A stretch of 64,000 bases of DNA from an uncultured Desulfobacterales bacterium (GTDB lineage: Bacteria > Desulfobacterota > Desulfobacteria > Desulfobacterales > JAHEIW01), in NCBI GenBank assembly GCA_947259495.1, contig CAMYLV010000024.1:1-64000 (forward strand), in the 5' to 3' direction. Position 1 is the stretch's first letter. Each line of letters begins with the position of its first letter. The position numbers were made by a program, and so were the translations under genes. The notes beneath the pieces are model-generated. The model saw only the letters and a program-made list of their open reading frames with translations. It was not told the origin of the DNA and searched no databases. This document shows positions 30,619 through 62,846 of the stretch, one piece after another.

Positions 30619-31485
30619 ATGCAATCAAAACGATGGAAACCTTGGGCCCTTTTATCCCCGGCGCTCAGCGCTGTATTTCTTTTATTGGTCGTGCCCGTAT
30701 GCTTCATCGTCGTTTACAGCTTCTGGTTGAGATCTCCTACCGGAGCCGACATTGCCGCCTTTCAGTTCGGCAATTACGCTAAATTCTTTGCTGACTATTT
30801 CTATCCTTCAATCCTATTGAGAACCATTCGGGTTTCGCTAGAAAGCGTAGCCTTGTGTCTTGTGTTGGGATATATCCCTGCTTATTTTTTTTACCGCAGC
30901 GAAACCCGTTTCAAATCGGTCCTTATTTTGTTGATTATGCTTCCCTTCTGGATCAGTTTCATCATCCGCACCATGAGTTGGATCAACATTCTTGGTGATA
31001 CGGGACTGATCAATCATTATCTGATCAAGTTTGGCATTTTATCTGAACCCCTGGGCATGCTTTACAATGAGGGATCCGTCCTGATGGGTCTGATTCAGTA
31101 TCTTCTCCCATTTATGATTCTGAATATTTATGTGAGTCTGGAGGGTATTGACAAAAGTTTGCTGGAGGCGGCTCGCAGCATGGGCTGTACCGAATGGCAA
31201 GCTTTTAAGGAGGTAACACTGCCGCTCAGCCTTCCAGGTTTAAGTGCGGGCAGTCTTTTAGTATTTGTTTTAACCGCCGGGACCTACCTGCCGCCCATGA
31301 TCCTGGGCGGTCCGAAAAATGAGATGATTGCCAACCTGATTTTTAAACGTGTTATCGGTACATTGGATTGGCCCTTTGGTTCAGCGATCAGCGTGGTTTT
31401 ACTGGGTCTGTTGTTAATTATCGTCTGGACGTATAATCGTTATCTGGGCATCAACCAGATATTTAAAAGTCTCCAGGGAGAATAA
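30619..31485 (+). CDS. ABC transporter permease, spermidine/putrescine (PotB) type
   Basis: One of two inner-membrane permeases of an ABC importer. The 288-residue protein has about six membrane spans and the EAA coupling motif EAARSMGCTEWQAFKEVTLP (around residues 185-205), which contacts the ATPase. GGGAGAA precedes the ATG. The next permease follows after four bases, and a binding protein and ATPase complete the system. The family includes importers for polyamines and for other cationic or opine-like solutes, so the substrate is not fixed. Confidence 0.9.
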   Translation: MQSKRWKPWALLSPALSAVFLLLVVPVCFIVVYSFWLRSPTGADIAAFQFGNYAKFFADYFYPSILLRTIRVSLESVALCLVLGYIPAYFFYRSETRFKSVLILLIMLPFWISFIIRTMSWINILGDTGLINHYLIKFGILSEPLGMLYNEGSVLMGLIQYLLPFMILNIYVSLEGIDKSLLEAARSMGCTEWQAFKEVTLPLSLPGLSAGSLLVFVLTAGTYLPPMILGGPKNEMIANLIFKRVIGTLDWPFGSAISVVLLGLLLIIVWTYNRYLGINQIFKSLQGE

Positions 31486-31489
31486 GTGC

Positions 31490-32281
31490 ATGCCAAAAAT
31501 ATCGGGCTGGTCTTTGATTCGCTTTTATACCATTTTGGTCTACGCGTTCATGTTCGCCCCTATTGTCGTGGTCGTCGTCCTGTCCTTCAACCCGGAACAA
31601 TTCGGCAGCTTTCCGATGAAGGGCTTCAGCTTCAGATGGTTTATCAAACTGGCACAAAATCAAACCATATTGATTGCCTTTAAAAATTCACTGATTCTGG
31701 GCTCACTGACCGCCGTCGTTTCAACGGCTGTCGGCATTATGGCATCCATGGCATTCGTGCGGTATAACTTTCCGGGCAAGAACACGCTCAATACATTGCT
31801 GTTAGCGCCCATCATGATTCCCGAAGTCATATTGGGGGTGGCCCTTCTGCTGTTCATCCGCTGGCTTCAGCAACCCAAAAGTTTTGCACTGCTGGTTATC
31901 GGGCATGTGGTGTTGACTCTGCCTTACGTTCTTTTAATCGTTCAGGCCCGGCTGGGCGGGATCAAAAAGGAATATGAGGAAGCGGCCCAATCACTGGGAG
32001 CAAATGGCTTGCAAACCTTCAAGGAGGTGACCTTACCGCTGCTGACACCGGCCATATTGGCCGGGATGCTGTTTTCTTTCACGATATCCTTTGACGATAT
32101 CACTGCTACGCTGTTCTGGGCGACGGCCCAAAATCAAACCGTGCCAGTTAAAATATTTGGTATGCTAAGAAACTCCATCAGTCCCGAAATCAATGCACTG
32201 GGCACGGTTATGATCGTTCTGACGATTGCTACGCCTTTGCTGGCCGGCTATTTGTCCCGCAAACTCTCCAGAGGGTCTTAG
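31490..32281 (+). CDS. ABC transporter permease, spermidine/putrescine (PotC) type
   Basis: The second permease of the importer, 263 residues with about six spans and the EAA motif EAAQSLGANGLQTFKEVTLP. FTISFDDITATLFW is a PotC-type stretch. It starts four bases after the first permease; translational coupling is likely. Confidence 0.9.
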   Translation: MPKISGWSLIRFYTILVYAFMFAPIVVVVVLSFNPEQFGSFPMKGFSFRWFIKLAQNQTILIAFKNSLILGSLTAVVSTAVGIMASMAFVRYNFPGKNTLNTLLLAPIMIPEVILGVALLLFIRWLQQPKSFALLVIGHVVLTLPYVLLIVQARLGGIKKEYEEAAQSLGANGLQTFKEVTLPLLTPAILAGMLFSFTISFDDITATLFWATAQNQTVPVKIFGMLRNSISPEINALGTVMIVLTIATPLLAGYLSRKLSRGS

Positions 32282-32557: not shown

Positions 32558-33715
32558 ATGAAGCACGATCTGCAAGAGAAATTGGATCGATTGTTTGAAA
32601 AGTATATGAATGGAGAAATTGGCAGGAGGGACTTTCTAAAATTTCTGGGCATTGCCGGCGCAGCGGTAGGCATGGTGGGCGGTCCATTCGGATTTTGCGG
32701 ACCTGCTTATGCAGCCAAATCCATTCGTTTCGATGGATGGGGTGGGGTTGTCTCCGAAGCTTTTCGCGAACACGCTTTTCAGCCCTTTACAAAGGCCACC
32801 GGCGTCAAGGTCATCGATGGAGAGTTTGGTGACATGGACACCTACCTGACACGGGTCAAAGCCTCTTTCCCACCCGGCGGGGAGTTCAATCTGGCGCATT
32901 TGAGCGGCGTCTTTGATTACGCCAGATATGCAGGCCTCAAATTCAATGTCGTCCTGGATGAAAGCAAAATTCCGAATCTCAAAAATGTGATGACCGCCAT
33001 GATAGAGCCTTACCGGGCAATTACAAACGGGACGCTCTCGGCTGTTCCATACGATTATGGCCAGACCGGCATTGCCTACAACACCAAGCATATTCCAAAG
33101 GATACGGCTGAAAAACTGGGGGCTTCATTGTTGTGGGATAAAGCCGTCAAAGGGAAACTGGGCAGCTGGGGAGACTGGCGCACCAACATCTGGTATGCGG
33201 CTCTGCATACCGGACAGAATCCAAACAAAATATCCGACATGAAAGCCGTCTGGAGCGCATTAGAGCAACAGGTCCCGATGGTGAAAAAGTACTGGGGATC
33301 GGGCGCAGAGCTCATGAGCTTGCTGGCCAATGAGGAGATTTATGCCACCGTTGCCTGGTCGGGCCGCGTGGCTGCCCTTCAAGCCCAGGGGCACCCCATC
33401 GGATTCCTATCTCCGCATAACTGTTATTCATGGCAGGAGTGTATTTTTGTCACGAAGGGAACCGATCTGGATGTAGCCCAAACGCTGCTCAATTTCATGC
33501 TGGAACCCAAAGCGGCCATTGCGGTGGCTGTCGGGCAGAAATATCCGTCAAGCCTGGATCCCACAAAGGTTCCGATGCCCGAGGCAGTCAAGAAGCTGCC
33601 GGCATTTGATCCGACCGGTAAGTTGGAAGGGTACCTGTTCGCTGATCCTGCTTTCTGGAACAGTCATCAGGTTGAATTCGCCGAGAAGTGGGATCGTATC
33701 AAAGCGGGTGGATAA
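32558..33715 (+). CDS. Periplasmic substrate-binding protein, PotD-like, Tat-exported
   Basis: The 385-residue protein is the extracytoplasmic binding component of the ABC importer. Its N-terminus has a twin-arginine signal (GRRDFLKFLGIAGAAVGMV, residues about 22-40) ending at AYA, so it is probably exported folded through Tat. The body has the PotD-like pattern with NTKHIPKDTAEK and TVAWSGRVAALQAQG. AAAAGGAGG precedes the start. The ligand is unknown; polyamines, opines or betaine-like compounds are possible for this family. Confidence 0.88.
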   Translation: MKHDLQEKLDRLFEKYMNGEIGRRDFLKFLGIAGAAVGMVGGPFGFCGPAYAAKSIRFDGWGGVVSEAFREHAFQPFTKATGVKVIDGEFGDMDTYLTRVKASFPPGGEFNLAHLSGVFDYARYAGLKFNVVLDESKIPNLKNVMTAMIEPYRAITNGTLSAVPYDYGQTGIAYNTKHIPKDTAEKLGASLLWDKAVKGKLGSWGDWRTNIWYAALHTGQNPNKISDMKAVWSALEQQVPMVKKYWGSGAELMSLLANEEIYATVAWSGRVAALQAQGHPIGFLSPHNCYSWQECIFVTKGTDLDVAQTLLNFMLEPKAAIAVAVGQKYPSSLDPTKVPMPEAVKKLPAFDPTGKLEGYLFADPAFWNSHQVEFAEKWDRIKAGG

Positions 33716-33783: not shown

Positions 33784-34914
33784 GTGGAAAACAAATCGAC
33801 TTCCCCTGCGGTTCAGCTGAAAGGGGTGTATAAACGATTCGGCAAAGTCGTGGCGGTGCAGAAGATGGACCTTGACTTTGAAGAAGGCTCTCTGGTGACG
33901 CTTCTGGGACCATCGGGTTGTGGCAAGACCACGATTTTAAGAATGATAGCCGGGCTGGAAGCCCCAACGGAAGGGGAAATCTATATCAAAGGCAAACGGG
34001 TCAACGATATTCCGATCCACAAGCGCAACCTGGGCATGATTTTCCAAAATTATGCCCTTTTTCCGCATAAGACTATTTTTGACAATGTCGCTTTTGGGTT
34101 AAAATATCGGAATGTTGCCAAAGGTGAAATGCAAGCAAAGGTCACAAAGGCACTGGAAATGGTGCGACTTCCCGGTGTTGAGGGCCGCATGCCATCGCAG
34201 CTGTCCGGTGGTCAGCAGCAGCGCATTGCCATGGCCCGTGCCATTGTCATTGAACCTGATGTCCTTTTGATGGATGAGCCGCTGTCGGCCCTGGACGAGA
34301 ATCTTCGCGAGGAGATGCGCCGGGAAATAGACAATTTGCAACAGATGCTGGGTGTCACGACCCTTTTTGTCACTCATGATCAGCGCGAAGCGCTCTCCAT
34401 GTCCGATAAAATCGTCGTGATGAAAGATGGTCTCAAGCAGCAGGAAGGCAGCCCTGAGGAAGTATACAACTATCCCCGCAACCATTTTGTATCGGATTTT
34501 CTGGGGCATTCCAATTTCTTTGGTGGTGTCATTGCGGGCTTGGAAGACGAAGGGGTCAGTGTCAAGTTGCAGGATGGAAATGAATTCAGAGTCGAGCATC
34601 CGGGAGATTGGGCAAATAATGCGGCGGTCGAGTTGGTCATACGTGCTCAAAAATTTGAACTGACTTATCTGGATGAGGCGCCGCCCGAACCCGACATGAA
34701 CACATTTGATGGTACCATCAAAGATCGTAGCTACATGGGTGGCGAGGTCAGTTATTTCGTGGAATTGGAGAGCGGCACGATGGTGCATGTTATCGGCATC
34801 GCCAAATTGACCCCCTTTAAAAAAGGGGAAAAAATCCGGCTTCACGTGGCGCCCCGGCATTGTGGTTTGCTTCAGAAAGATAAAGCTGGCGGGGATGCAC
34901 GGCCTGCAAAATAG
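33784..34914 (+). CDS. ABC transporter ATP-binding protein, PotA-like
   Basis: The 376-residue ATPase powers the importer. It has Walker A GPSGCGKTT (about residues 40-48), the signature LSGGQQQR, Walker B VLLMDEP, the switch His in FVTHDQ, and a C-terminal TOBE-type regulatory domain from about residue 245. The start is GTG 33784. It follows the binding protein by 68 bases. Confidence 0.93.
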   Translation: MENKSTSPAVQLKGVYKRFGKVVAVQKMDLDFEEGSLVTLLGPSGCGKTTILRMIAGLEAPTEGEIYIKGKRVNDIPIHKRNLGMIFQNYALFPHKTIFDNVAFGLKYRNVAKGEMQAKVTKALEMVRLPGVEGRMPSQLSGGQQQRIAMARAIVIEPDVLLMDEPLSALDENLREEMRREIDNLQQMLGVTTLFVTHDQREALSMSDKIVVMKDGLKQQEGSPEEVYNYPRNHFVSDFLGHSNFFGGVIAGLEDEGVSVKLQDGNEFRVEHPGDWANNAAVELVIRAQKFELTYLDEAPPEPDMNTFDGTIKDRSYMGGEVSYFVELESGTMVHVIGIAKLTPFKKGEKIRLHVAPRHCGLLQKDKAGGDARPAK

Positions 34915-35026
34915 TATCAACACATTGGCTAGCCATCATGACCCACCCCAAGTAACTTTAATGCTAAATTTTAATAAAGTTTGCTCCCATTTTGGGAGGT
35001 GGTATTGGTTTGCCAGGGGATTTTCA

Positions 35027-36064
35027 ATGGAATTCGCTAACAGAGTACAAACGATCAAAAATATTTTTCCAGATCGGATCATCACAATTGATTCGCACAC
35101 TGCAGGGGAACCAACCCGTCTGATTGTCGGTGGGGTCGGTCCGGTGCCTGGGGAGACCATGCAGGAAAAACGCGTTTTCTTCATGGAACGCTATGACTAC
35201 ATTCGCCAGCAACTGACGCGCGAACCCCGCGGTCATCGCGACATGCTGGCCGCATGCGTCACCGAACCCGTATCACCCGGTGCGCGGTTAGGTCTGATCT
35301 ACATGGATGCATGCCGCTATCCTTATCTCTGTGGTCATGCGACCATGGGTGCAGTCATGACCCTGATCGAGGCGGGTGTTATTGACGCAGACAAAGACGT
35401 ACTTCAGGTTGTTGTCGACACGCCTTCCGGCCCCATGCAAACAACGGCCTACATGCAGAACGGCAAGGTTGAATCAATTGCGATCCAGATGGTGCCATCG
35501 TTCGTTTACCGGGATAATGAAACCCTATCAATTGCGGAGACCGGCCGGCTGAAGGTCGCAACCGTCTGTGTGGGTGGGTTCTTCATCATGGTTTCATCAG
35601 ATCAGATCGGCCTTGATTTATCGCCGCCCAATAGAAACCGTTTAATCAAATTGGGGATGAAGCTCATTCAAGCAGCGAATCAACAATTGACGGTACGCCA
35701 TCCCACCCGAACGGAAGTCAATACAGTGGATGTAACCGAATTTTATGATCCATCACTGGACGCTGAGGGCAAAGGAAAGAGTATTGTTATTTATGGCGAA
35801 GAACATATGGATCGCTCTCCTTGCGGCACCGGTACTGCTGCCAAAATGACCCTGCTCCATCACCGGGGCCAGCTGGGCCTCAAGGAAACCTTCATTAACA
35901 AGAGCCCGCTGGGGACGACTTTTGAGGGCCGCCTCGTGGAAGAAACTCGGCTGGGGGATAAAAAAGCGGTTGTCGCAGAAGTCCGTGGAAACGCCCAGAT
36001 TACCGGCATACACGAATTCATCATCGATTCGAAAGACCCATTTCAGAAAGGATTTTTGCTATGA
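35027..36064 (+). CDS. Proline racemase / 4-hydroxyproline epimerase family enzyme
   Basis: This family inverts or dehydrates proline-like substrates with two catalytic cysteines. Both are present: Cys 102 in LCGHATMG and Cys 266 in DRSPCGTGT, so a racemase or epimerase is more likely than a dehydratase, which has Ser or Thr at the first site. I chose ATG 35027 (after AGGGGA), giving IDSHTAGEPTRLIVGG in the normal place and 345 residues. The frame is open upstream into the ATPase gene but without homology. It overlaps the following amidohydrolase by four bases. Confidence 0.9.
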   Translation: MEFANRVQTIKNIFPDRIITIDSHTAGEPTRLIVGGVGPVPGETMQEKRVFFMERYDYIRQQLTREPRGHRDMLAACVTEPVSPGARLGLIYMDACRYPYLCGHATMGAVMTLIEAGVIDADKDVLQVVVDTPSGPMQTTAYMQNGKVESIAIQMVPSFVYRDNETLSIAETGRLKVATVCVGGFFIMVSSDQIGLDLSPPNRNRLIKLGMKLIQAANQQLTVRHPTRTEVNTVDVTEFYDPSLDAEGKGKSIVIYGEEHMDRSPCGTGTAAKMTLLHHRGQLGLKETFINKSPLGTTFEGRLVEETRLGDKKAVVAEVRGNAQITGIHEFIIDSKDPFQKGFLL

Positions 36065-37843: not shown

Positions 37844-40321
37844 TCAAGCCATAAAAAAACCGCCGGTATTGATAAGATCTTCAATCGCAAGGATTGGATG
37901 ACCATCAGCGTCGACACTGACGTGCGGCGGCCAGTCGTAAGTCGAATCCATGCCTCTGAAATAGTCCAACCGATAGGGCAGCAGTTTCAACGACATCTGC
38001 CCGTTTTCTTCAGACAGCTTCGATGTAAGGCCAAAATCGACTTCGCCCAATTCCGTCAGGATGATATAGCGCGGTATTTCTCGGCCGCTGCCGTTTCTTC
38101 GGACCCGGGTTGCAATGTCGATGACAGTGGCAATGTCGAGGGGGTGTTTCTGACTCCAATCTTTTTGCAGGGGCAAACCGGCAACATATAAATGGTGAAA
38201 TTCGAGGCCGATCTTTCGGCAGCTGTATGCCAGGCGGTGTATTTCTTCTGCATGGTCATTGATGTTGGCCAAAAGGGGCGTGTTATTATAAACGGTAATG
38301 CCTTTATTGTGTAAGGCCTTTACCCGCTCAGCATGGACCGGTTCGATTTCACAGGAATGCAGAAATTGCGTCTCGATTTCCAGTCTCAAGGGATTGACGA
38401 CCGCCAGGCGGTTGAGCTCGCCCAGTCGATCAATCACAGCCCGGGTATAAGCCGCGGGTACATAGTTGAACTTTAGACTCCGCAACCGGACCGCGTTGAC
38501 ATGATGAATTTCCCGCAGATGACCGATCAGCTTTCCTATGCGATAAAGGTGCTCTACTGCATCTTGCTCAGATGATATGACGATGTCGGTGATGCGCTTG
38601 TCTTTTCGAATATAATCCAGGTCTTTATCGTTGGCTGTGGCATCGATTTCTACTCGCGTTTCGTGTGTCCTGCAGAGGGTTGCAGATGCAGTCGAGACAA
38701 TTGAGCCGCCCAATCGCTGATCTTTTATGGTCAGCGCCTGCATTTGTTTTAGGGCTTGTTGATCGGTCTCATTTGCTTTTGCAGGCACGGCATTGCGGGA
38801 ACCAATGAATATCGAATCATCTCCGGTTTCTGCCATAAAACGTGCATCCAGTGTGCCTTCCGAATTGACCCGCACGACATCCAACTGTTCGACCTTCTGG
38901 GCAAAGTCCTTAAAATAGTCCGGGGTATAGGGCGTTCTGACCCAGAAAAAATGATCATCCTGCGCATCCTTTTCAACCGCCCAGCCGCTTGAGTGCCAGT
39001 CTATTTTGCCGATGGGTGTGGCCGTACAAATTCGTGGCATGATTCGATCCGATAAATGGGCCCGCAGATATCGAGTTGCTTCTAAACCCTTTGAGATCGG
39101 CGACCAATAGACGCTGTTGCCCTGTATCGGGCTACAGGGGATATAGATATAGTGAAGCTCAGCTCCCGCGCCCCTTAAGAGACTGAAGAGCCTTGTCAGT
39201 TCGGGTCCTTCATCGTTGCAGTTGTTCAGAAAAGGCGTCTGGACATAAACGCTGATGCCGTTTTTAACAAGCGTCGAAATGATATCCAGGCTGTCCAGGG
39301 AAATCTCATCGGGATGGATAAAATGGGTGGCAACCTCCAAGCGTTTTCCCAGCTGCTGCAGTTCCAGGTTCTTCATCTTGATCGTGTTTAGCCAGAAGGA
39401 ATTGTCTTTGTAGAAAAGATGCGGGTAGTAGGAAATGGAACGTGTTGCCAGTCGAAGGGTCTGAACGTGCGAAATCTCTTTCAAACCGTCAATGGCCGTT
39501 AGCATGTTTTTTTTGTTCAAAAAGGGGTCCCCACCGGTGATGACAATTTCCTTGATATTGGGAGAATCTCCCACATAATCTACGGCCTGCCGCACATCTG
39601 CCGCCGTTGGATTGGTCTGGTTTCTGGAATCCTTATGTTTTCTGAAGCAGAAACGACAGTAGACCGGGCAGCTCATGTTCAGTAAAAAGATAACCCGGTT
39701 GCGATACATTTGTTCTAAAAGCCCCTGGTGGAATTGGCCAACCCAGGTATTGATCTGTCCGACCGGGTCCAGTTCCTCGATAAACGGCGCATACTGATAG
39801 GCGACGCTTTTTGAAATCCGCATCTGTCGAAGGGTATGCATCGAGAGCCTGACCGGATAGGTCTCGATGACTTCCTGCAGTGCATTGCGCTCTGATTCAC
39901 CAACCGTTATATTGGTCAGTTTTTCAAATCGGCTCACATCCCGAACCGAGATGAAGCGGTTGTCCGGTATGATTTTTTCCAGGATGGACAAAACGAAAAG
40001 GTTGGGCAGGTCAACACCGCTAATGTTCAGCGGATCACCGTTTGCACTGTTGGCTGTGCCCAGTTTTTCGGTCATTTCTAAAAAAAAGCCCTGCGGGTTA
40101 TTGGCATACCCGGCAGCACTTAACAGCCGGTGAAATTTCGTTTGGCCGTCGCCTTCACCAATGATTTCGTAAAAGACGCTTCCCAAAAGGTATTCTTCTC
40201 CATAATGTTCAAGGAAATCAGCAGCATCAGATGTGAGCGTGGCAAGGGCGACATCTGTCTGTTCCCCGGAGTTGACAAATTCCACCTGATAGACTGTATC
40301 TTCAAGATTCATTTTAGCCAC
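37844..40321 (-). CDS. KamA-family radical SAM protein with duplicated barrel
   Basis: The 825-residue protein has an N-terminal region without recognisable family (about 1-180), then a lysine-2,3-aminomutase-like radical SAM barrel with CxxxCxxC at Cys 218/222/225, TGGDP at 262-266 and a candidate PLP lysine 439 (ATPIGKIDW). From about residue 545 a second copy of the same barrel follows, aligning segment by segment (NGISVYVQTPFLNNCND with KGITVYNNTPLLANIND). It keeps only one of the three cysteines, has SSEQD in place of TGGDP, and lacks the lysine. The second lysine-recognition Asp of KamA also seems replaced in the first copy, so the substrate is uncertain. An AblB-like acetyltransferase lies upstream. 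Confidence 0.85.
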   Translation of the reverse strand: MAKMNLEDTVYQVEFVNSGEQTDVALATLTSDAADFLEHYGEEYLLGSVFYEIIGEGDGQTKFHRLLSAAGYANNPQGFFLEMTEKLGTANSANGDPLNISGVDLPNLFVLSILEKIIPDNRFISVRDVSRFEKLTNITVGESERNALQEVIETYPVRLSMHTLRQMRISKSVAYQYAPFIEELDPVGQINTWVGQFHQGLLEQMYRNRVIFLLNMSCPVYCRFCFRKHKDSRNQTNPTAADVRQAVDYVGDSPNIKEIVITGGDPFLNKKNMLTAIDGLKEISHVQTLRLATRSISYYPHLFYKDNSFWLNTIKMKNLELQQLGKRLEVATHFIHPDEISLDSLDIISTLVKNGISVYVQTPFLNNCNDEGPELTRLFSLLRGAGAELHYIYIPCSPIQGNSVYWSPISKGLEATRYLRAHLSDRIMPRICTATPIGKIDWHSSGWAVEKDAQDDHFFWVRTPYTPDYFKDFAQKVEQLDVVRVNSEGTLDARFMAETGDDSIFIGSRNAVPAKANETDQQALKQMQALTIKDQRLGGSIVSTASATLCRTHETRVEIDATANDKDLDYIRKDKRITDIVISSEQDAVEHLYRIGKLIGHLREIHHVNAVRLRSLKFNYVPAAYTRAVIDRLGELNRLAVVNPLRLEIETQFLHSCEIEPVHAERVKALHNKGITVYNNTPLLANINDHAEEIHRLAYSCRKIGLEFHHLYVAGLPLQKDWSQKHPLDIATVIDIATRVRRNGSGREIPRYIILTELGEVDFGLTSKLSEENGQMSLKLLPYRLDYFRGMDSTYDWPPHVSVDADGHPILAIEDLINTGGFFMA

Positions 40322-40495
40322 CTTTGCCGATTTAAAAAAGTTTCGGCTTTGAGCTTTCTTAACGAATGGCGGTCACGAGAGTAGCATTACGGGTCTTCGC
40401 TTCTTTAGCGGCCAATATACCATGGCCAAATTGATTGTCAAATGCAACATGCAAAGTAATGATTGGAAAAGAAGTTCGAACCCTCATTTGATGCC

Positions 40496-41347
40496 TTACA
40501 GGTTTTTGTACCAGATGTTCATGCTTTCGATCCGTCCGGCAATATGGGTATTGTTGCCCAACGTACCGCCGTATTGGTAGCCGTTTTTGACGAATGTAAT
40601 ATTCATTCCCGCTGACAGTGATCTGGCAATACTGTAGGCTGTTTGCAGGCCCTGTTGAGTCATCTCAGTGTCCATTGCTTGCAGCAGGCAATTGGCCATC
40701 CCCTGCCGGCGGTGTTCGGAAAGGGTTGCAAAGTCTGTCATTTCTGCAGCCAGGTTATCAGGGTCCATTTCAGCTGCAGCCAGAGCCACAATGCGATTGT
40801 CCCTGCGGATACAAAAATAGGTTACATGGCTATTGATCGATTCGATCAGATAATGCGGGTCGAAGACCGGAAACGGGTATGTTTTAAAAACCGTTTTGTA
40901 CAATCGACTCATCTCAGCGGCATCGTTCGGCTGGCATATTTGTACGCCAAAGCGATCATCTGTATTGGGCGATCGGGTAGGTTCGTATCTTTGTGCCACC
41001 GAAAGCACTTCAATTATATCTTGACGGTCGTTGACTTGCCTGCGGTTTGGGGAGAAATATTTGGCCATGAATACCGCGTCCTCTCGACCTTTAAAATAAT
41101 GCGGAATGATTGCCTCCTGATCATATCCTGCTTGTGCAAATCCATCTTTGTGGCGCGCGGGCGCCTTAACGAAAATCTTCTCATAGCCCTTGTCGCGGGC
41201 AAGATGCTCTAAGGCAGTTACAATTGATGGCATATCGCGCTCATCGAGTTTCATCAGATAAACGCGCCCGTTAATGGGGCCGTGCTGAACGATTGAATGA
41301 TTTAGTTTTTCGATGACATCGGGCATTTTTCGATATTCTTTTGCCAA
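40496..41347 (-). CDS. ablB: Putative beta-lysine N-acetyltransferase (AblB-like, GNAT)
   Basis: A 283-residue GNAT acetyltransferase. The N-terminal part with GRVYLMKLDERDMPSIVTAL and the C-terminal GNAT core with MTDFATLSEHRRQGMANCLL (acetyl-CoA loop RRQGMA) match the family that acetylates beta-lysine to the compatible solute N-epsilon-acetyl-beta-lysine. It is upstream of the KamA-like gene on the same strand, separated by 174 bases, which is the usual ablA-ablB partnership in a different order. The product assignment rests on similarity and context. Confidence 0.82.
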   Translation of the reverse strand: MAKEYRKMPDVIEKLNHSIVQHGPINGRVYLMKLDERDMPSIVTALEHLARDKGYEKIFVKAPARHKDGFAQAGYDQEAIIPHYFKGREDAVFMAKYFSPNRRQVNDRQDIIEVLSVAQRYEPTRSPNTDDRFGVQICQPNDAAEMSRLYKTVFKTYPFPVFDPHYLIESINSHVTYFCIRRDNRIVALAAAEMDPDNLAAEMTDFATLSEHRRQGMANCLLQAMDTEMTQQGLQTAYSIARSLSAGMNITFVKNGYQYGGTLGNNTHIAGRIESMNIWYKNL

Positions 41348-41713
41348 TTTTAATTCATATGCACTTCTGTTGCTTTGTTCGAATGAGCTGTCTCATTGAG
41401 GAGAGAATCCTGGCGGCTAAATTTTCTATGAGAACTGTAGCACCGGCATTTTCTGAGCGTCAAGTTTTAAACCCGAAAACTTCACGATTGTCATAATAGG
41501 AAAGATTTGAATTTCGCCGAATTTGGGAGTGACAAAACCAATTGCCGGTAAAAATTTATCGCTTCCGCTTGAAAAAGAGAAGAAAAAACACTATCAATTA
41601 CCTATATTGAGCAATTGTTGAGGTTGAAGGTCCGCCTGAGGCGGATAAAGATCATTTTAAGTCTTGATAACATTTATTCATTGCTTGTCGGGAAAAACGA
41701 AAAAGGGGGCCAA
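41348..41713. other. Divergent intergenic region with small palindrome
   Basis: This 366-base stretch separates the minus-strand ablB from the plus-strand aminotransferase and must hold both promoters, though I see no convincing -35/-10 pair. A perfect palindrome TCCGCC-TGA-GGCGGA lies at 41631-41645. The aminotransferase frame is open from 41615 but its homology begins after 41714. Confidence 0.5.
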
Positions 41714-42895
41714 GTGAAGCCGCTTTCTCAAATCACAAATAAATTTACCGAATCTGTTATTCGCGAGATGACGCGAGTATGCATGGCCGAGGGTGGGGTA
41801 AATTTAGCGCAGGGATTTCCGGATTTTGATCCGCCGCAGGAGCTCAAACAAGCGGCCATTGAGGCTATTGAAACGGGTTGTAATCAGTATTCGATCACCT
41901 TTGGCGAGCCCGATTTGAGGGGGGCTATTGCTGCCAAAGCACTTCGCTACAATCAGATTGACTATGATCCGGGCTCTGAGATAACGGTCACCTGTGGTGC
42001 GACTGAAGCCATGATCGCCACGCTCAAGGCCATCGTGAATCCCGGCGATGAAATCATCATTTTTGAGCCCTACTATGAAAATTACGGTCCGGATGCCATC
42101 CTGTCCGGTGCCCGACCCCGTTACGTCACGTTGCGGCCTCCGGATTGGCGGTATGACCCAAGCGAACTGGCCGAAGCCTTCAATTCCAACACTAAGGCCG
42201 TCATCATCAACACGCCCAACAACCCGACCGGCAAGGTTTTTTCCAGGATGGAGCTTGAAGATATCGCCAGACTTTGTATCCAGTGGAATTGCCTGGCCAT
42301 AACGGATGAAATTTACGAACATATCATCTATGATAACGAAAGGCATATTTCCATTGCTGCCTTGGAGGGCATGGCAGACCGCACGGTAACCATCAATTCC
42401 CTTTCCAAAACCTATTCCGTCACAGGGTGGCGCGTGGGTTGGGCGTTGGCACATAAAAATATTACCCATCGCATCCGCAAAGTTCACGACTTTCTGACTG
42501 TGGGTGCGCCCACCCCTTTTCAAAAGGCCGGCGTCTGCGCTCTGAATTTGGAGGAGACATATTATGAAAAGTTGCAAAGCCGCTATACGCAAGCGCGAGA
42601 TCGGATCTGTGATGCATTATTGGATGCCGGATTCAATCTCAGGTCTCCCAAAGGCGCCTACTACATCATGGCCGATGCGGACCGTTTGATGGATCAGTTG
42701 GGGGCAGACGGTGCCGATGCTTTCAGCCTGAAATTGATTCATTTGGCCGGTATTGCGACGGTACCGGGCACGGCCTTTTATCATATGGAAGAAATGGGGA
42801 ACCACCAGGTGAGATTCTGTTTTGCCAAGTCCGCGGCAACACTCGACGAAATATGCTTAAGGCTCGATAAAGTTAAGCAGATGGTGAAAGCATGA
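41714..42895 (+). CDS. PLP-dependent aminotransferase, class I/II
   Basis: A fold-type I aminotransferase of 393 residues. It has the substrate/PLP motifs NLAQGFPDF, NTPNNPTGKVF, TDEIYEHIIYD and the Schiff-base lysine in NSLSKTYSVTGWRVGW, close to aspartate- and kynurenine/methionine-type aminotransferases. The start is GTG 41714 after AAGGGGG; an upstream ATG at 41615 would add an unrelated leader. Substrate unknown. It converges on the thioredoxin-like gene with a one-base gap. Confidence 0.9.
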   Translation: MKPLSQITNKFTESVIREMTRVCMAEGGVNLAQGFPDFDPPQELKQAAIEAIETGCNQYSITFGEPDLRGAIAAKALRYNQIDYDPGSEITVTCGATEAMIATLKAIVNPGDEIIIFEPYYENYGPDAILSGARPRYVTLRPPDWRYDPSELAEAFNSNTKAVIINTPNNPTGKVFSRMELEDIARLCIQWNCLAITDEIYEHIIYDNERHISIAALEGMADRTVTINSLSKTYSVTGWRVGWALAHKNITHRIRKVHDFLTVGAPTPFQKAGVCALNLEETYYEKLQSRYTQARDRICDALLDAGFNLRSPKGAYYIMADADRLMDQLGADGADAFSLKLIHLAGIATVPGTAFYHMEEMGNHQVRFCFAKSAATLDEICLRLDKVKQMVKA

Positions 42896-60932: not shown

Positions 60933-62117
60933 CTAGTCTAACGGCAAGCGCCGAAAGTATCCGGGGTTTTCCGGATTATAATAATGATCCATTGGGCCAT
61001 TTTTCCGGTAATCCTGATGCCAGTGATTGAAGGCATCCTGATCCAGCGTCACTCCGAGACCGGGACCTTCCGGCACATCCACCACATTGTTTCGCGGTTT
61101 AAAAGGACCTCCCTGGATGACATCGCCGATTTGCCAGCGCTTTAAAGATTGACTGGGTTCGTGTATCCATTGCGTGGCGGCGGTTACATGCAAGTAGGCA
61201 GCCGTACAGATCCCCGCGTCACCGCTATAACACCAGAAACCGATACCCATGGCCTCACATGCTCCGATGAATCGAATCGCCCGATTAATGCCACCCAGTA
61301 CGGCGAAATTGGTGACAAATGCATCCGGAACCCCCAACGCCACAGCCCGTCGAATGTCGGGTACGTGGGAGGAAAATGGAATGCTTGAGTGCTGGCGCAG
61401 CGACGCCATTTCTTCAAAGGTGGCCACGGGGTCTTCATAGTTACGGATGTTATAGGGTTCAATTTCACGCAATATCTGGCGGGCAGCAGACAGTGACCAC
61501 GACATGTTCGAATCGAGCCGGATCATCACTTCTGCACCGAGTTTTTCACGCAGGCATTTAACCGTAGCAACTTCAAGGTGAGGATCACCGAGGCTCAGCT
61601 TGCCTTCAAACATGGTGGATTTATGCTCTTCCTGCATTTTGACACAATAGTCGGCAACCGCCTCAGGAGTTACTTCTCCGCCATGTCCTTCCTTTGCCAC
61701 CCTGAAAGCAAAGTATTCGGTAAATGGAATTTTCTTGCGTACGGCGCCTCCGAGCAATTCGTACAGCGGTTGGTTCCATGCTTTGCCCCGTATATCCCAA
61801 AGCGCAATCTCAATGCCGCCGAATGCCTTGACAACCGAAGCGTCATCTGTATTCTGGACCACACACCACTCCGGTAAGCATCGCATCTCACAGCCGGCGA
61901 TATCGATGGGATCATGGCCGATTAACCGGGGCCCCATATGGTTATTGATCACCTCGGCACAATCTCCCGACGGCGACTCCCCGAGTCCAACAATCCCTTC
62001 ATCGGTTTCAACTTCAATGATCGTTTTCGTTGTACCCGGATAAGATCCGACCGACCAGTAAAAAGGAGCCTCAAGGGGAATGTTGACCGGTGTGGCACGC
62101 ACTTGCGAAATTTTCAT
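60933..62117 (-). CDS. Enolase-superfamily dehydratase/racemase (mandelate racemase/muconate lactonizing type)
   Basis: A 394-residue enzyme that abstracts a proton alpha to a carboxylate with Mg. The N-terminal lid domain (KISQVRATPVNIPLEAPFYW) is followed by a barrel with a Lys in FEGKLSLGD. Metal-ligand acids are in IRLDSNMSW and RNYEDPVA, and a catalytic His candidate is in SSHVPD. It is closest in style to glucarate- or galactarate-dehydratase-like members, but the substrate cannot be assigned. I use ATG 62117, preceded by AAAGGAGG, rather than the upstream ATG at 62171. Confidence 0.88.
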   Translation of the reverse strand: MKISQVRATPVNIPLEAPFYWSVGSYPGTTKTIIEVETDEGIVGLGESPSGDCAEVINNHMGPRLIGHDPIDIAGCEMRCLPEWCVVQNTDDASVVKAFGGIEIALWDIRGKAWNQPLYELLGGAVRKKIPFTEYFAFRVAKEGHGGEVTPEAVADYCVKMQEEHKSTMFEGKLSLGDPHLEVATVKCLREKLGAEVMIRLDSNMSWSLSAARQILREIEPYNIRNYEDPVATFEEMASLRQHSSIPFSSHVPDIRRAVALGVPDAFVTNFAVLGGINRAIRFIGACEAMGIGFWCYSGDAGICTAAYLHVTAATQWIHEPSQSLKRWQIGDVIQGGPFKPRNNVVDVPEGPGLGVTLDQDAFNHWHQDYRKNGPMDHYYNPENPGYFRRLPLD

Positions 62118-62846
62118 TTCAAGTCCTCCTTTCCTGGTTGCGGTCCAAATTATACCTACAACCCATATCATAATTAACGTAAATTGAGGGTTCCAGCAGG
62201 TGGTGATACCATATCAGACAACCAAATATCATCCGATCGTGAGATATTGAATATGTCAAGATATCAGGCTTTCTAAAATTATTGCAGATACAAAAGCGAT
62301 ATGTGAAACTTATCGGATTTGGGTGATTGATGTCAAATCATGGTTCCGAAAAATACGGCTTTGCGACAATAAAAAGGCAAATCCATAGGCTCGGATTCAC
62401 CCCTCTGAGTTGTGATTAAAATCGAATATCACAGGAATTTTCAGAATTGATATTTGCCGTTTGGAGGTATATGCATAAAATCATGGCCAGAGATATATGG
62501 TTCTTTTAGTGATATCCATAATAAGGGCAGGGCCGTTATGACCCTGCGCGGGCTATTACATCTATAAAAGTTTAAATCTAATATTCAATTCAAGGTATCC
62601 CGACAGCAGCTAAACTCGTGTTGGGCTCTTAGCCTGGCTGATAAGGCTATGTTCCAGATAAAGCAAACTAGTGAAATCTATTCGGCATCACCAAATATAT
62701 TATGATCCTTTGGGTTTATTGAGGTGATCCCCAAATAATTTGCTTTGACTTCTACTTTTTTGTGATTAAGGTTTTTTGAATAATTATATTGAACTTTGAG
62801 CGTTTTGGGGTAAAACCGGTCATACCGATTTCTGGAAGGAGAAAAA
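62118..62846. other. Large intergenic region upstream of mscS
   Basis: No credible gene is seen in 729 bases. It contains repeat B copy 2 (62335-62462) and a small GCAGGG/CCCTGC hairpin (62527-62547) without a T-run. It ends with GGAAGGAG before the mscS start. Both flanking genes read away from it, so it must hold two promoters. Confidence 0.6.
62335..62462 (+). repeat. Dispersed repeat B, copy 2
   Basis: This is the direct-orientation match to 59020-59150, with the same AAATCCATAGGCTCGGATTC core. Together the two copies bracket the cyclase-TPR remnant and the enolase-superfamily gene. Confidence 0.8.

Follow-up and report, generated by a model that had tools for sequence, protein, structure and literature searches.

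A KamA-type radical SAM barrel fused to a degenerate copy of itself, in a gene cluster that may handle beta-lysine-type solutes

In lysine 2,3-aminomutase (KamA or AblA; EC 5.4.3.2; TIGR03820; PDB 2a5h), a radical S-adenosylmethionine (SAM) enzyme, Lys337 is the lysine that carries pyridoxal 5'-phosphate (PLP), Arg134 is the carboxylate arginine, and Asp293 and Asp330 bind the ammonium group of the substrate lysine. The related glutamate 2,3-aminomutase has an altered side-chain pocket. The ablA-ablB pair, which couples this enzyme to a GNAT acetyltransferase, serves the osmolyte N-epsilon-acetyl-beta-lysine, which PMC1224877 gives as a common osmolyte of methanogens. Here we analyze a 64,000-nucleotide stretch of DNA (the window) from an uncultured Desulfobacterales bacterium (GenBank assembly GCA_947259495.1, contig CAMYLV010000024.1, positions 1 to 64,000), in which a minus-strand gene (37844-40321) encodes a double-barrel KamA-like radical SAM/PLP protein of 825 residues as called, hereafter the fused enzyme. 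An earlier, sequence-only reading had paired this open reading frame with one for an AblB-like acetyltransferase (40496-41347, minus strand, 283 residues), and both frames are present. With a confidence that falls a little short of even, we favor the view that the fused enzyme is a radical SAM/PLP enzyme of the aminomutase type, in which a live KamA barrel is joined to a pseudo-enzyme copy, and that it works in a cluster for beta-lysine-type solutes such as N-epsilon-acetyl-beta-lysine. To our knowledge, no radical SAM aminomutase has been described that carries an inactive copy of its own barrel, and none of the titles and abstract openings found in the open-licence literature dealt with such a KamA fusion.

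The AlphaFold model of the whole fused protein has a predicted local distance difference test score (pLDDT) of 88.9 and a predicted TM-score (pTM) of 0.92. Among solved structures it fits KamA 2a5h best, at Z 24.6 over 340 residues, well ahead of the next entry (14.4). Barrel 1 (residues 200-500; 38822-39724, minus strand) is a complete radical SAM/PLP barrel with the KamA fold, the CxxxCxxC motif and the PLP lysine. Barrel 2 (residues 536-825; 37847-38716, minus strand) is a degenerate KamA barrel that has lost both the cluster motif and the PLP lysine. Folded alone (pLDDT 90.0, pTM 0.87), it still superimposes best on 2a5h (Z 19.6 over 232 residues, root-mean-square deviation 2.6; next entry Z 11.3). 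Alignment of the two barrels with hhalign gave 99.6% (E 1.4e-23), and the only PDB entry matched by a barrel-2 profile at E up to 1 was again 2a5h (E 2.2e-13). The second barrel is thus homologous to the first, as the sequence-only reading had held, and the C-terminal half passes the test set beforehand, namely that its predicted structure be a barrel. Below KamA, the structure searches ranked further radical SAM enzymes and barrel folds, which scored less well; that a protein is missing from these lists is uninformative. A tree of both barrels with 20 single-barrel enzymes gave three groups (support 92/87 for barrel 1, 100/100 for barrel 2 and 100/99 for the single-barrel panel) on long branches and without a root, a pattern that fits an internal duplication and is no proof of one.

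To follow individual residues, we counted conservation in 72 non-redundant members of the fused family, using window numbering. Mean identity to the window protein is 67% in barrel 1, 52% in barrel 2 and 36% in the N-terminal region. In barrel 2, the TGGDP motif is replaced by SSEQD and the PLP-lysine GK by GE, both as read earlier from the letters. The residue in place of the PLP lysine, E760 (38042-38044, minus strand), is Glu in 64/72 members and Asp in the other 8/72. The claim that this half holds only one Cys stands for the motif position; the half as a whole has three (550, 657 and 701), with Cys at those positions in 6/72, 3/72 and 24/72 members. Barrel 2 therefore combines homology to an active barrel with an acid for the PLP lysine in 72/72 members, loss of the cluster motif and no conserved Cys at the window Cys positions, which bears out the proposal of a cluster-less pseudo-enzyme half. 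Many of its polar residues are nevertheless invariant across the family, among them R551 and H553 (38663-38671, minus strand; 72/72), which lie near the place of the cluster motif when positioned by eye. These findings support a protein made of an active KamA barrel and a cluster-less pseudo-barrel.

Barrel 1 shows the opposite pattern. The radical SAM cysteines C218, C222 and C225 (39647-39670, minus strand), proposed earlier from the sequence, are invariant in the 72 members, as are R227 and the PLP lysine K439 (39005-39007, minus strand; KamA Lys337). For the residues that bind the far end of lysine, we compared the family with a panel of 20 single-barrel KamA-type enzymes of the same order, a panel that includes no known glutamate enzyme. 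The place of KamA Asp293 is taken by S397 (39131-39133, minus strand; Ser in 69/72, His in 3/72), and at about the position of Asp330 stands T433 (39023-39025, minus strand; Thr in 71/72, Ile in 1/72); the panel has Asp at both positions in 20/20 enzymes. Loss of one lysine-recognizing Asp had been noted before; in fact both are gone. Two residues past the PLP lysine, an acid appears at D441 (38999-39001, minus strand; Asp in 65/72, Glu in 7/72), where the panel has Pro (19/20) or Arg (1/20). The intact catalytic residues, taken with the changed Asp pair, indicate that the catalytic machinery was kept and the site for lysine's far end rebuilt. Judged from these alignments, the far end of the substrate may be neutral, or it may carry an ammonium group held by the new acid at 441; both are possible. 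A divergent fused subfamily (L094, L144 and L145; 42-46% identity to the window protein where listed) has His397 together with Glu441, and L094 occurs in Desulfospira joergensenii alongside a standard fused copy (L065).

The fused protein matches six KamA-type models, each over two stretches and each below its curated cut-off. The window protein scores 172.3 bits against the KamA family model TIGR00238 (cut-off 199.2), and relatives fall short of the same cut-off as well (167.2, 155.1, 159.4 and 152.8 bits in four, 172.0 in a fifth). Its scores are 162.8 bits for AblA (TIGR03820; cut-off 525.4), 146.6 for glutamate 2,3-aminomutase (TIGR04368; 650), 169.8 for arginine 2,3-aminomutase (TIGR04468; 600) and 136.9 for EpmB (TIGR03821; 369.3). 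In Pfam the region of the first radical SAM motif is the sole match; the LAM_C domain (PF12544), present in a canonical AblA of the order (L160), found no match in the fused protein. None of the NCBIfam and Pfam models searched covers the fusion of KamA with a dead barrel as such. The probable start is Met4 (40312), which would give 822 residues: Met occupies that position in 62/72 relatives and AGGTGG lies upstream. The extra N-terminal region had been put at about 180 residues, which is too long. It comprises only about 110 (residues 1-110; 39992-40321, minus strand), because the structural match begins at residue 110, equivalent to KamA residue 3. This region, ahead of the KamA-matching part, is largely helical in the model and weakly conserved, and its best sequence match in the PDB (E 0.48) is at chance level. 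A different fusion turned up in L177 (156-2537; near-identical frame in L178), a 793-residue protein in which a KamA radical SAM and LAM_C part is followed by a D-Ala-D-Ala-ligase-type ATP-grasp domain, perhaps for an amino-group shift and then ligation of the product.

The AblB-type GNAT acetyltransferase lies upstream of the fused gene on the same strand, 174 nucleotides away (183 from Met4). It scores 334.1 bits against TIGR03827 (AblB; cut-off 205.1, E 5.8e-100) and is the only AblB match in its own genome, where no second one was found. Its likelier start, by eye from those of relatives, is Met8 (41326), and no solved relative was found by sequence at E 0.01. The same arrangement, with AblB directly upstream on the same strand, recurs in L042/L137 (one genome), L136 (a gap of 6 nucleotides) and L147. 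We then surveyed 291 genomes of the order. Counted from the listed matches, 43/291 had one above 300 bits, meaning a member of the fused family or a sizeable part of one; the search also returned numerous ordinary KamA-type genes, about 30% identical. AblB exceeds its cut-off in 23/291. The fused enzyme is present in 18/23 genomes with AblB and in 25/268 others (Fisher 6e-13, a value that serves only as a guide because the genomes are related). AblB is thus a neighbor of the fused enzyme, as the sequence-only reading had supposed, and also its statistical partner. A quick tree of AblB proteins had weak forks and was given no weight. The five AblB genomes in which the search found no fused enzyme are G214, G084, G121, G158 and G118 (G158 is 81% and G118 73% complete). 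The AblB genes of G084 and G121 lie in L162 and L163, and in L162 a polar-amino-acid-type ATP-binding cassette (ABC) permease gene, of the sort found in L057 and L130, is close by.

Association with AblB is far from obligatory. No AblB above cut-off was found in 25/43 genomes with the fused enzyme, three of which (G146, G255 and G024) have partial matches or fragments; G088, of the same genus as the window genome and with a fused enzyme 85% identical, also has none above cut-off. Canonical AblA exceeds its cut-off in 15/291 genomes and occurs together with AblB above cut-off in one, G214, where the genes are adjacent (L160). Several AblB genomes carry KamA-type genes just under the AblA cut-off (G076 505.5, G273 493.3, G181 482.8, G071 477.6, G121 472.2 and G033 467.7 bits), which by their scores may be lysine enzymes. 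In the window's own genome (97.3% complete) no KamA-family gene was found besides the fused gene, and hence no separate standard ablA to serve AblB, a possibility that had been raised as a test.

The clearest link to acetyl-beta-lysine comes from a Desulfonatronum genome (G669; locus L200, in the genome of L081). There, successive genes on one strand encode the fused enzyme, a regulator of the LuxR type, AblA (751 bits, cut-off 525), AblB (310 bits, cut-off 205), two Pot-type permeases and a Pot-type binding protein. Next come an ABC importer of the glycine-betaine type, made up of an OpuAC binding protein, a CBS-domain ATPase and, by eye, two permeases, and then a Pot-type ATPase, a racemase and an amidohydrolase. 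The presence of AblA, AblB and a glycine-betaine-type importer in this run ties the cluster to beta-lysine, its acetyl form and osmotic solutes, in line with the acetylated osmolyte proposed at the outset. Since AblA lies beside it, the fused enzyme is unlikely to be merely a further lysine 2,3-aminomutase; it probably works alongside AblA rather than only replacing it. Taken together, the cluster probably handles beta-lysine-type solutes. In a Spirochaetia genome (G674), canonical AblA adjoins AblB and the fused gene lies on another contig. Desulfospira joergensenii (G677) has AblB, and all four of its TIGR03820 KamA-family matches fall within its two fused genes. Across 12 genomes checked for both, AblA exceeded its cut-off in 2 and AblB in 4.

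The AblB/fused pair turned out to be one corner of a larger cluster. By neighbor clustering over loci, the window from 30.6 to 42.9 kilobases is a conserved cluster on two strands. All genes other than the pair lie on the plus strand: two Pot-type ABC permeases named by clustering and by eye (30619-31485, cluster family 4; 31490-32281, family 5), a PotD-like substrate-binding protein with a twin-arginine translocation (Tat) signal (32558-33715, family 3), 74% identical to the protein of the Desulfonatronum cluster, a PotA-like ABC ATPase (33784-34914, family 1), a proline-racemase-family enzyme (34862-36064, family 9), an amidohydrolase (PF07969; 36061-37701, family 8) and a class I/II aminotransferase (41615-42895, family 12). 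The called start of the racemase is probably too early, because homology begins at residue 72. A racemase or epimerase of the proline-racemase type needs two Cys motifs; the first is kept in 20/20 members of this family and the second is matched in 18/20. Beyond the cluster, close to the aminotransferase, the window holds a coenzyme A (CoA)-transferase pair (PF01144; 44715-46593) and then a TRAP transporter, acyl-CoA dehydrogenase and electron-transfer flavoprotein genes; the CoA-transferase pair is, by eye, outside the families that recur around the fused gene elsewhere. The window also encodes a mandelate racemase/muconate lactonizing enzyme family protein (60933-62171).

Gene order varies among relatives. 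In L126, L127 and L129, the fused gene has an M23-like gene behind it and faces a single run that comprises AblB, aminotransferase, amidohydrolase, racemase, ATPase, binding protein, two permeases and an IclR-type regulator. L128 shares this layout, except that some of its frames are called on the opposite strand. Desulfobacula-type loci have the order sigma-54 regulator, importer, 109-residue protein, fused gene and M23-like gene. Another class of ABC importer replaces the Pot type in L057, L095, L130 and L133 (with an SBP_bac_3 binding protein in L130), and an importer that can be exchanged in this way suggests that the function includes taking up an amino-acid-like compound. We counted neighbors in two overlapping sets of 61 and 33 loci, at least 12 of them common to both; the counts are lower bounds, since many contigs end nearby and flanks vary. 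The amidohydrolase lies near the fused gene in 4/61 and 13/33 loci and the M23-like gene in 36/61 and 16/33. The M23-like gene comes after the fused gene, in 30/61 loci on that gene's strand and in 5/61 on the opposite one; its 221-residue product (L140, 10380-11045, and relatives) scores below the Pfam cut-off, has conserved HLGxD and HxH motifs, and may act on a small molecule. The 109-residue protein (family 6; L079, 5660-5989, and relatives) has no Pfam match and stands directly ahead of the fused gene in 22/61 loci; that it is an AblB remnant was ruled out (hhalign probability 0.1%).

The fused architecture recurs in many anaerobic bacteria. Scanning species genomes yielded 63 loci, most of which come from Desulfobacterota, others from Spirochaetia and one from Muiribacteriota; one of the 63, L096, is not of the fused family. 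Members of the family were seen in Desulfonatronum, Desulfuromusa, Spirochaetia and Muiribacteriota. A phylum-wide search with barrel 2 returned the window's own genome alone among 395 at E 1e-20; few candidates were scored per genome, and this is not an absence count. Some record titles name a marine, saline or sediment source and most state no habitat.

We interpret these observations with the following scheme. A solute would be taken up by the Pot-type ABC importer, or made by AblB, with AblA where that is present. Going by the enzyme family, SAM would bind to a [4Fe-4S] cluster in barrel 1, and the amino acid would form an aldimine with PLP there, which frees K439; the barrel would then generate a 5'-deoxyadenosyl radical and shift the amino group between C2 and C3. 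The connection of the product to general metabolism would be made by amidohydrolase, racemase and aminotransferase. Our guess for the substrate is that its far end, no longer held by the KamA Asp pair, would be either neutral (for instance acetylated) or a cation resting on D/E441. The direction is guessed as well: cells without AblA might synthesize the solute by acetylating first, and cells without AblB might salvage an imported one. With importer, racemase, amidohydrolase and aminotransferase in the cluster, uptake and turnover fit at least as well as synthesis. Barrel 2 would be radical-free, and its invariant polar residues suggest, again as a guess, an inner pseudo-dimer face or a ligand site.

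Several observations weigh against this scheme. The cluster is inconstant: a Pot-type importer gene lies near the fused gene in 36/61 and 17/33 loci, the racemase in 7/61 and 11/33, and AblB in only 2/61 and 8/33. In L080, L082 and L084-L086 the M23-like gene is the only recurring neighbor, on the opposite strand, with one rare-family gene in addition in L085; the M23-like gene has no match in the window's own genome, as judged by a single query without a positive control. AblA lies inside the cluster in one genome (G669), and in Desulfospira joergensenii AblB is not close to the fused genes, and the 16 kilobases read around it contain no member of the cluster families. An Rfam search of the window and four loci found no riboswitch, the sole RNA match being a tRNA at 392-464. 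The equivalences to KamA Asp293 and Asp330 are alignment-based, with a gap near Asp330. Finally, we know of no assay of any member of the fused family.

A sharper form of our preferred reading, possible but on the doubtful side, makes N-epsilon-acetyl-lysine or N-epsilon-acetyl-beta-lysine the substrate, with its neutral amide in a Ser/Thr pocket, and has the enzyme interconvert alpha and beta forms, either in a synthesis that acetylates before the amino group is moved or to salvage the methanogen osmolyte after import. It agrees with the replacement of both Asp residues by small hydroxyl residues, with the run that AblA, AblB, importer and amidohydrolase share with the fused enzyme in L200, and with how common this osmolyte is in methanogens. 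It leaves the invariant acid at 441 unexplained, gives the racemase no clear place, and sits awkwardly with the binding protein, in which some of the acidic and aromatic residues that form the polyamine site are retained (in an alignment read against the PotD residues).

A second alternative, which we regard as rather unlikely, is breakdown of some other imported amino-acid-like compound, such as ornithine or a proline-related one, with AblB and AblA as guests in some genomes. Racemase, amidohydrolase, aminotransferase, the IclR or sigma-54 regulator and the exchangeable importer would all suit a catabolic pathway of this kind, as would the absence of AblB from 25/43 fused-enzyme genomes; the AblA-AblB pair within the L200 run and the co-occurrence statistics for AblB speak against it. 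It is also unlikely that the fused enzyme is simply this lineage's own lysine 2,3-aminomutase, turning lysine into beta-lysine for AblB to acetylate to the N-epsilon-acetyl-beta-lysine osmolyte, with ammonium recognition moved from Asp293/Asp330 to D/E441. The acid at 441 in 72/72 members would be explained, as would a window AblB well above cut-off in a genome with no other KamA-family match, the gene order shared by the window, L042/L137, L136 and L147, and the gene content of Desulfospira joergensenii. Yet both Asp residues are lost here and kept in the 20 single-barrel enzymes checked, and in two genomes the fused enzyme accompanies an adjacent pair of canonical AblA and AblB, within one run in G669 and on a separate contig in G674. 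AblB genomes such as G076, G273, G181, G071 and G033 have sub-cut-off KamA-type genes that could make beta-lysine, and AblB above cut-off is missing from 25/43 fused-enzyme genomes.

Other radical chemistry that keeps SAM and PLP, such as elimination, epimerization or C-C cleavage, would accord with the rebuilt substrate site and with scores below every named KamA-type cut-off in 6/6 members scanned; we think it distinctly improbable, since every catalytic residue checked is conserved in the aminomutase half and no gene of the cluster calls for a different reaction. That two adjacent genes or a frameshift were read as one, or that the second half is unrelated, can be set aside almost entirely: the gene is in two frames in G006, but a single open frame with both halves conserved runs through 72 non-redundant members and each half folds as a KamA barrel.

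Returning to the aminomutase-type enzyme that we prefer, the fused protein is a clean case of a lysine pocket rebuilt around an untouched catalytic core. Should the connection with acetyl-beta-lysine prove right, the turnover of this major methanogen osmolyte could be tested in a cultured organism, Desulfospira joergensenii, which has AblB and whose only KamA-family matches are two copies of the fused enzyme. In its boldest form, which we regard as rather unlikely, a covalent pair of live and dead barrels with new far-end recognition would interconvert acetylated alpha- and beta-lysine and provide anaerobes with an unrecognized route for making, scavenging or degrading the beta-amino-acid osmolytes that they share with methanogens.

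We finally compared the locus with the described systems closest to it. With KamA/AblA the fused enzyme has in common the barrel fold, CxxxCxxC, the PLP lysine, the carboxylate arginine and the GGD/GGE motif, and its first half probably works like KamA, as far as sequence and fold can say; it differs in the second barrel, the lack of a LAM_C match, the roughly 110 extra N-terminal residues and the loss of both lysine-binding Asp residues. The glutamate and arginine 2,3-aminomutases belong to the same superfamily, at 147/650 and 170/600 bits. EpmB (YjeK) resembles the fused enzyme in having a KamA barrel without the C-terminal multimerization domain, a feature of YjeK stated in PMC2821294; the fused enzyme reaches 137/369 bits against its model. 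The window resembles the Bacillus kamA-yodPQRST operon in having a KamA-type enzyme, an AblB-type enzyme, a deacylase, an aminotransferase and a CoA-transferase in one neighborhood. The operon has its own classes of deacylase and aminotransferase; the window has other classes of both, an importer and an aminomutase that is fused. Bacillus KamA (BSU19690) and YodT (BSU19740) are both assigned to SigE in PMC6522883. Like the ablA-ablB pair, the window sets an AblB-type GNAT acetyltransferase beside a KamA-type enzyme, and a real pair lies within the L200 run. Unlike that pair, the window has the fused enzyme in the place of AblA, surrounded by importer, racemase, amidohydrolase and aminotransferase, in a family of loci where AblB is often missing.

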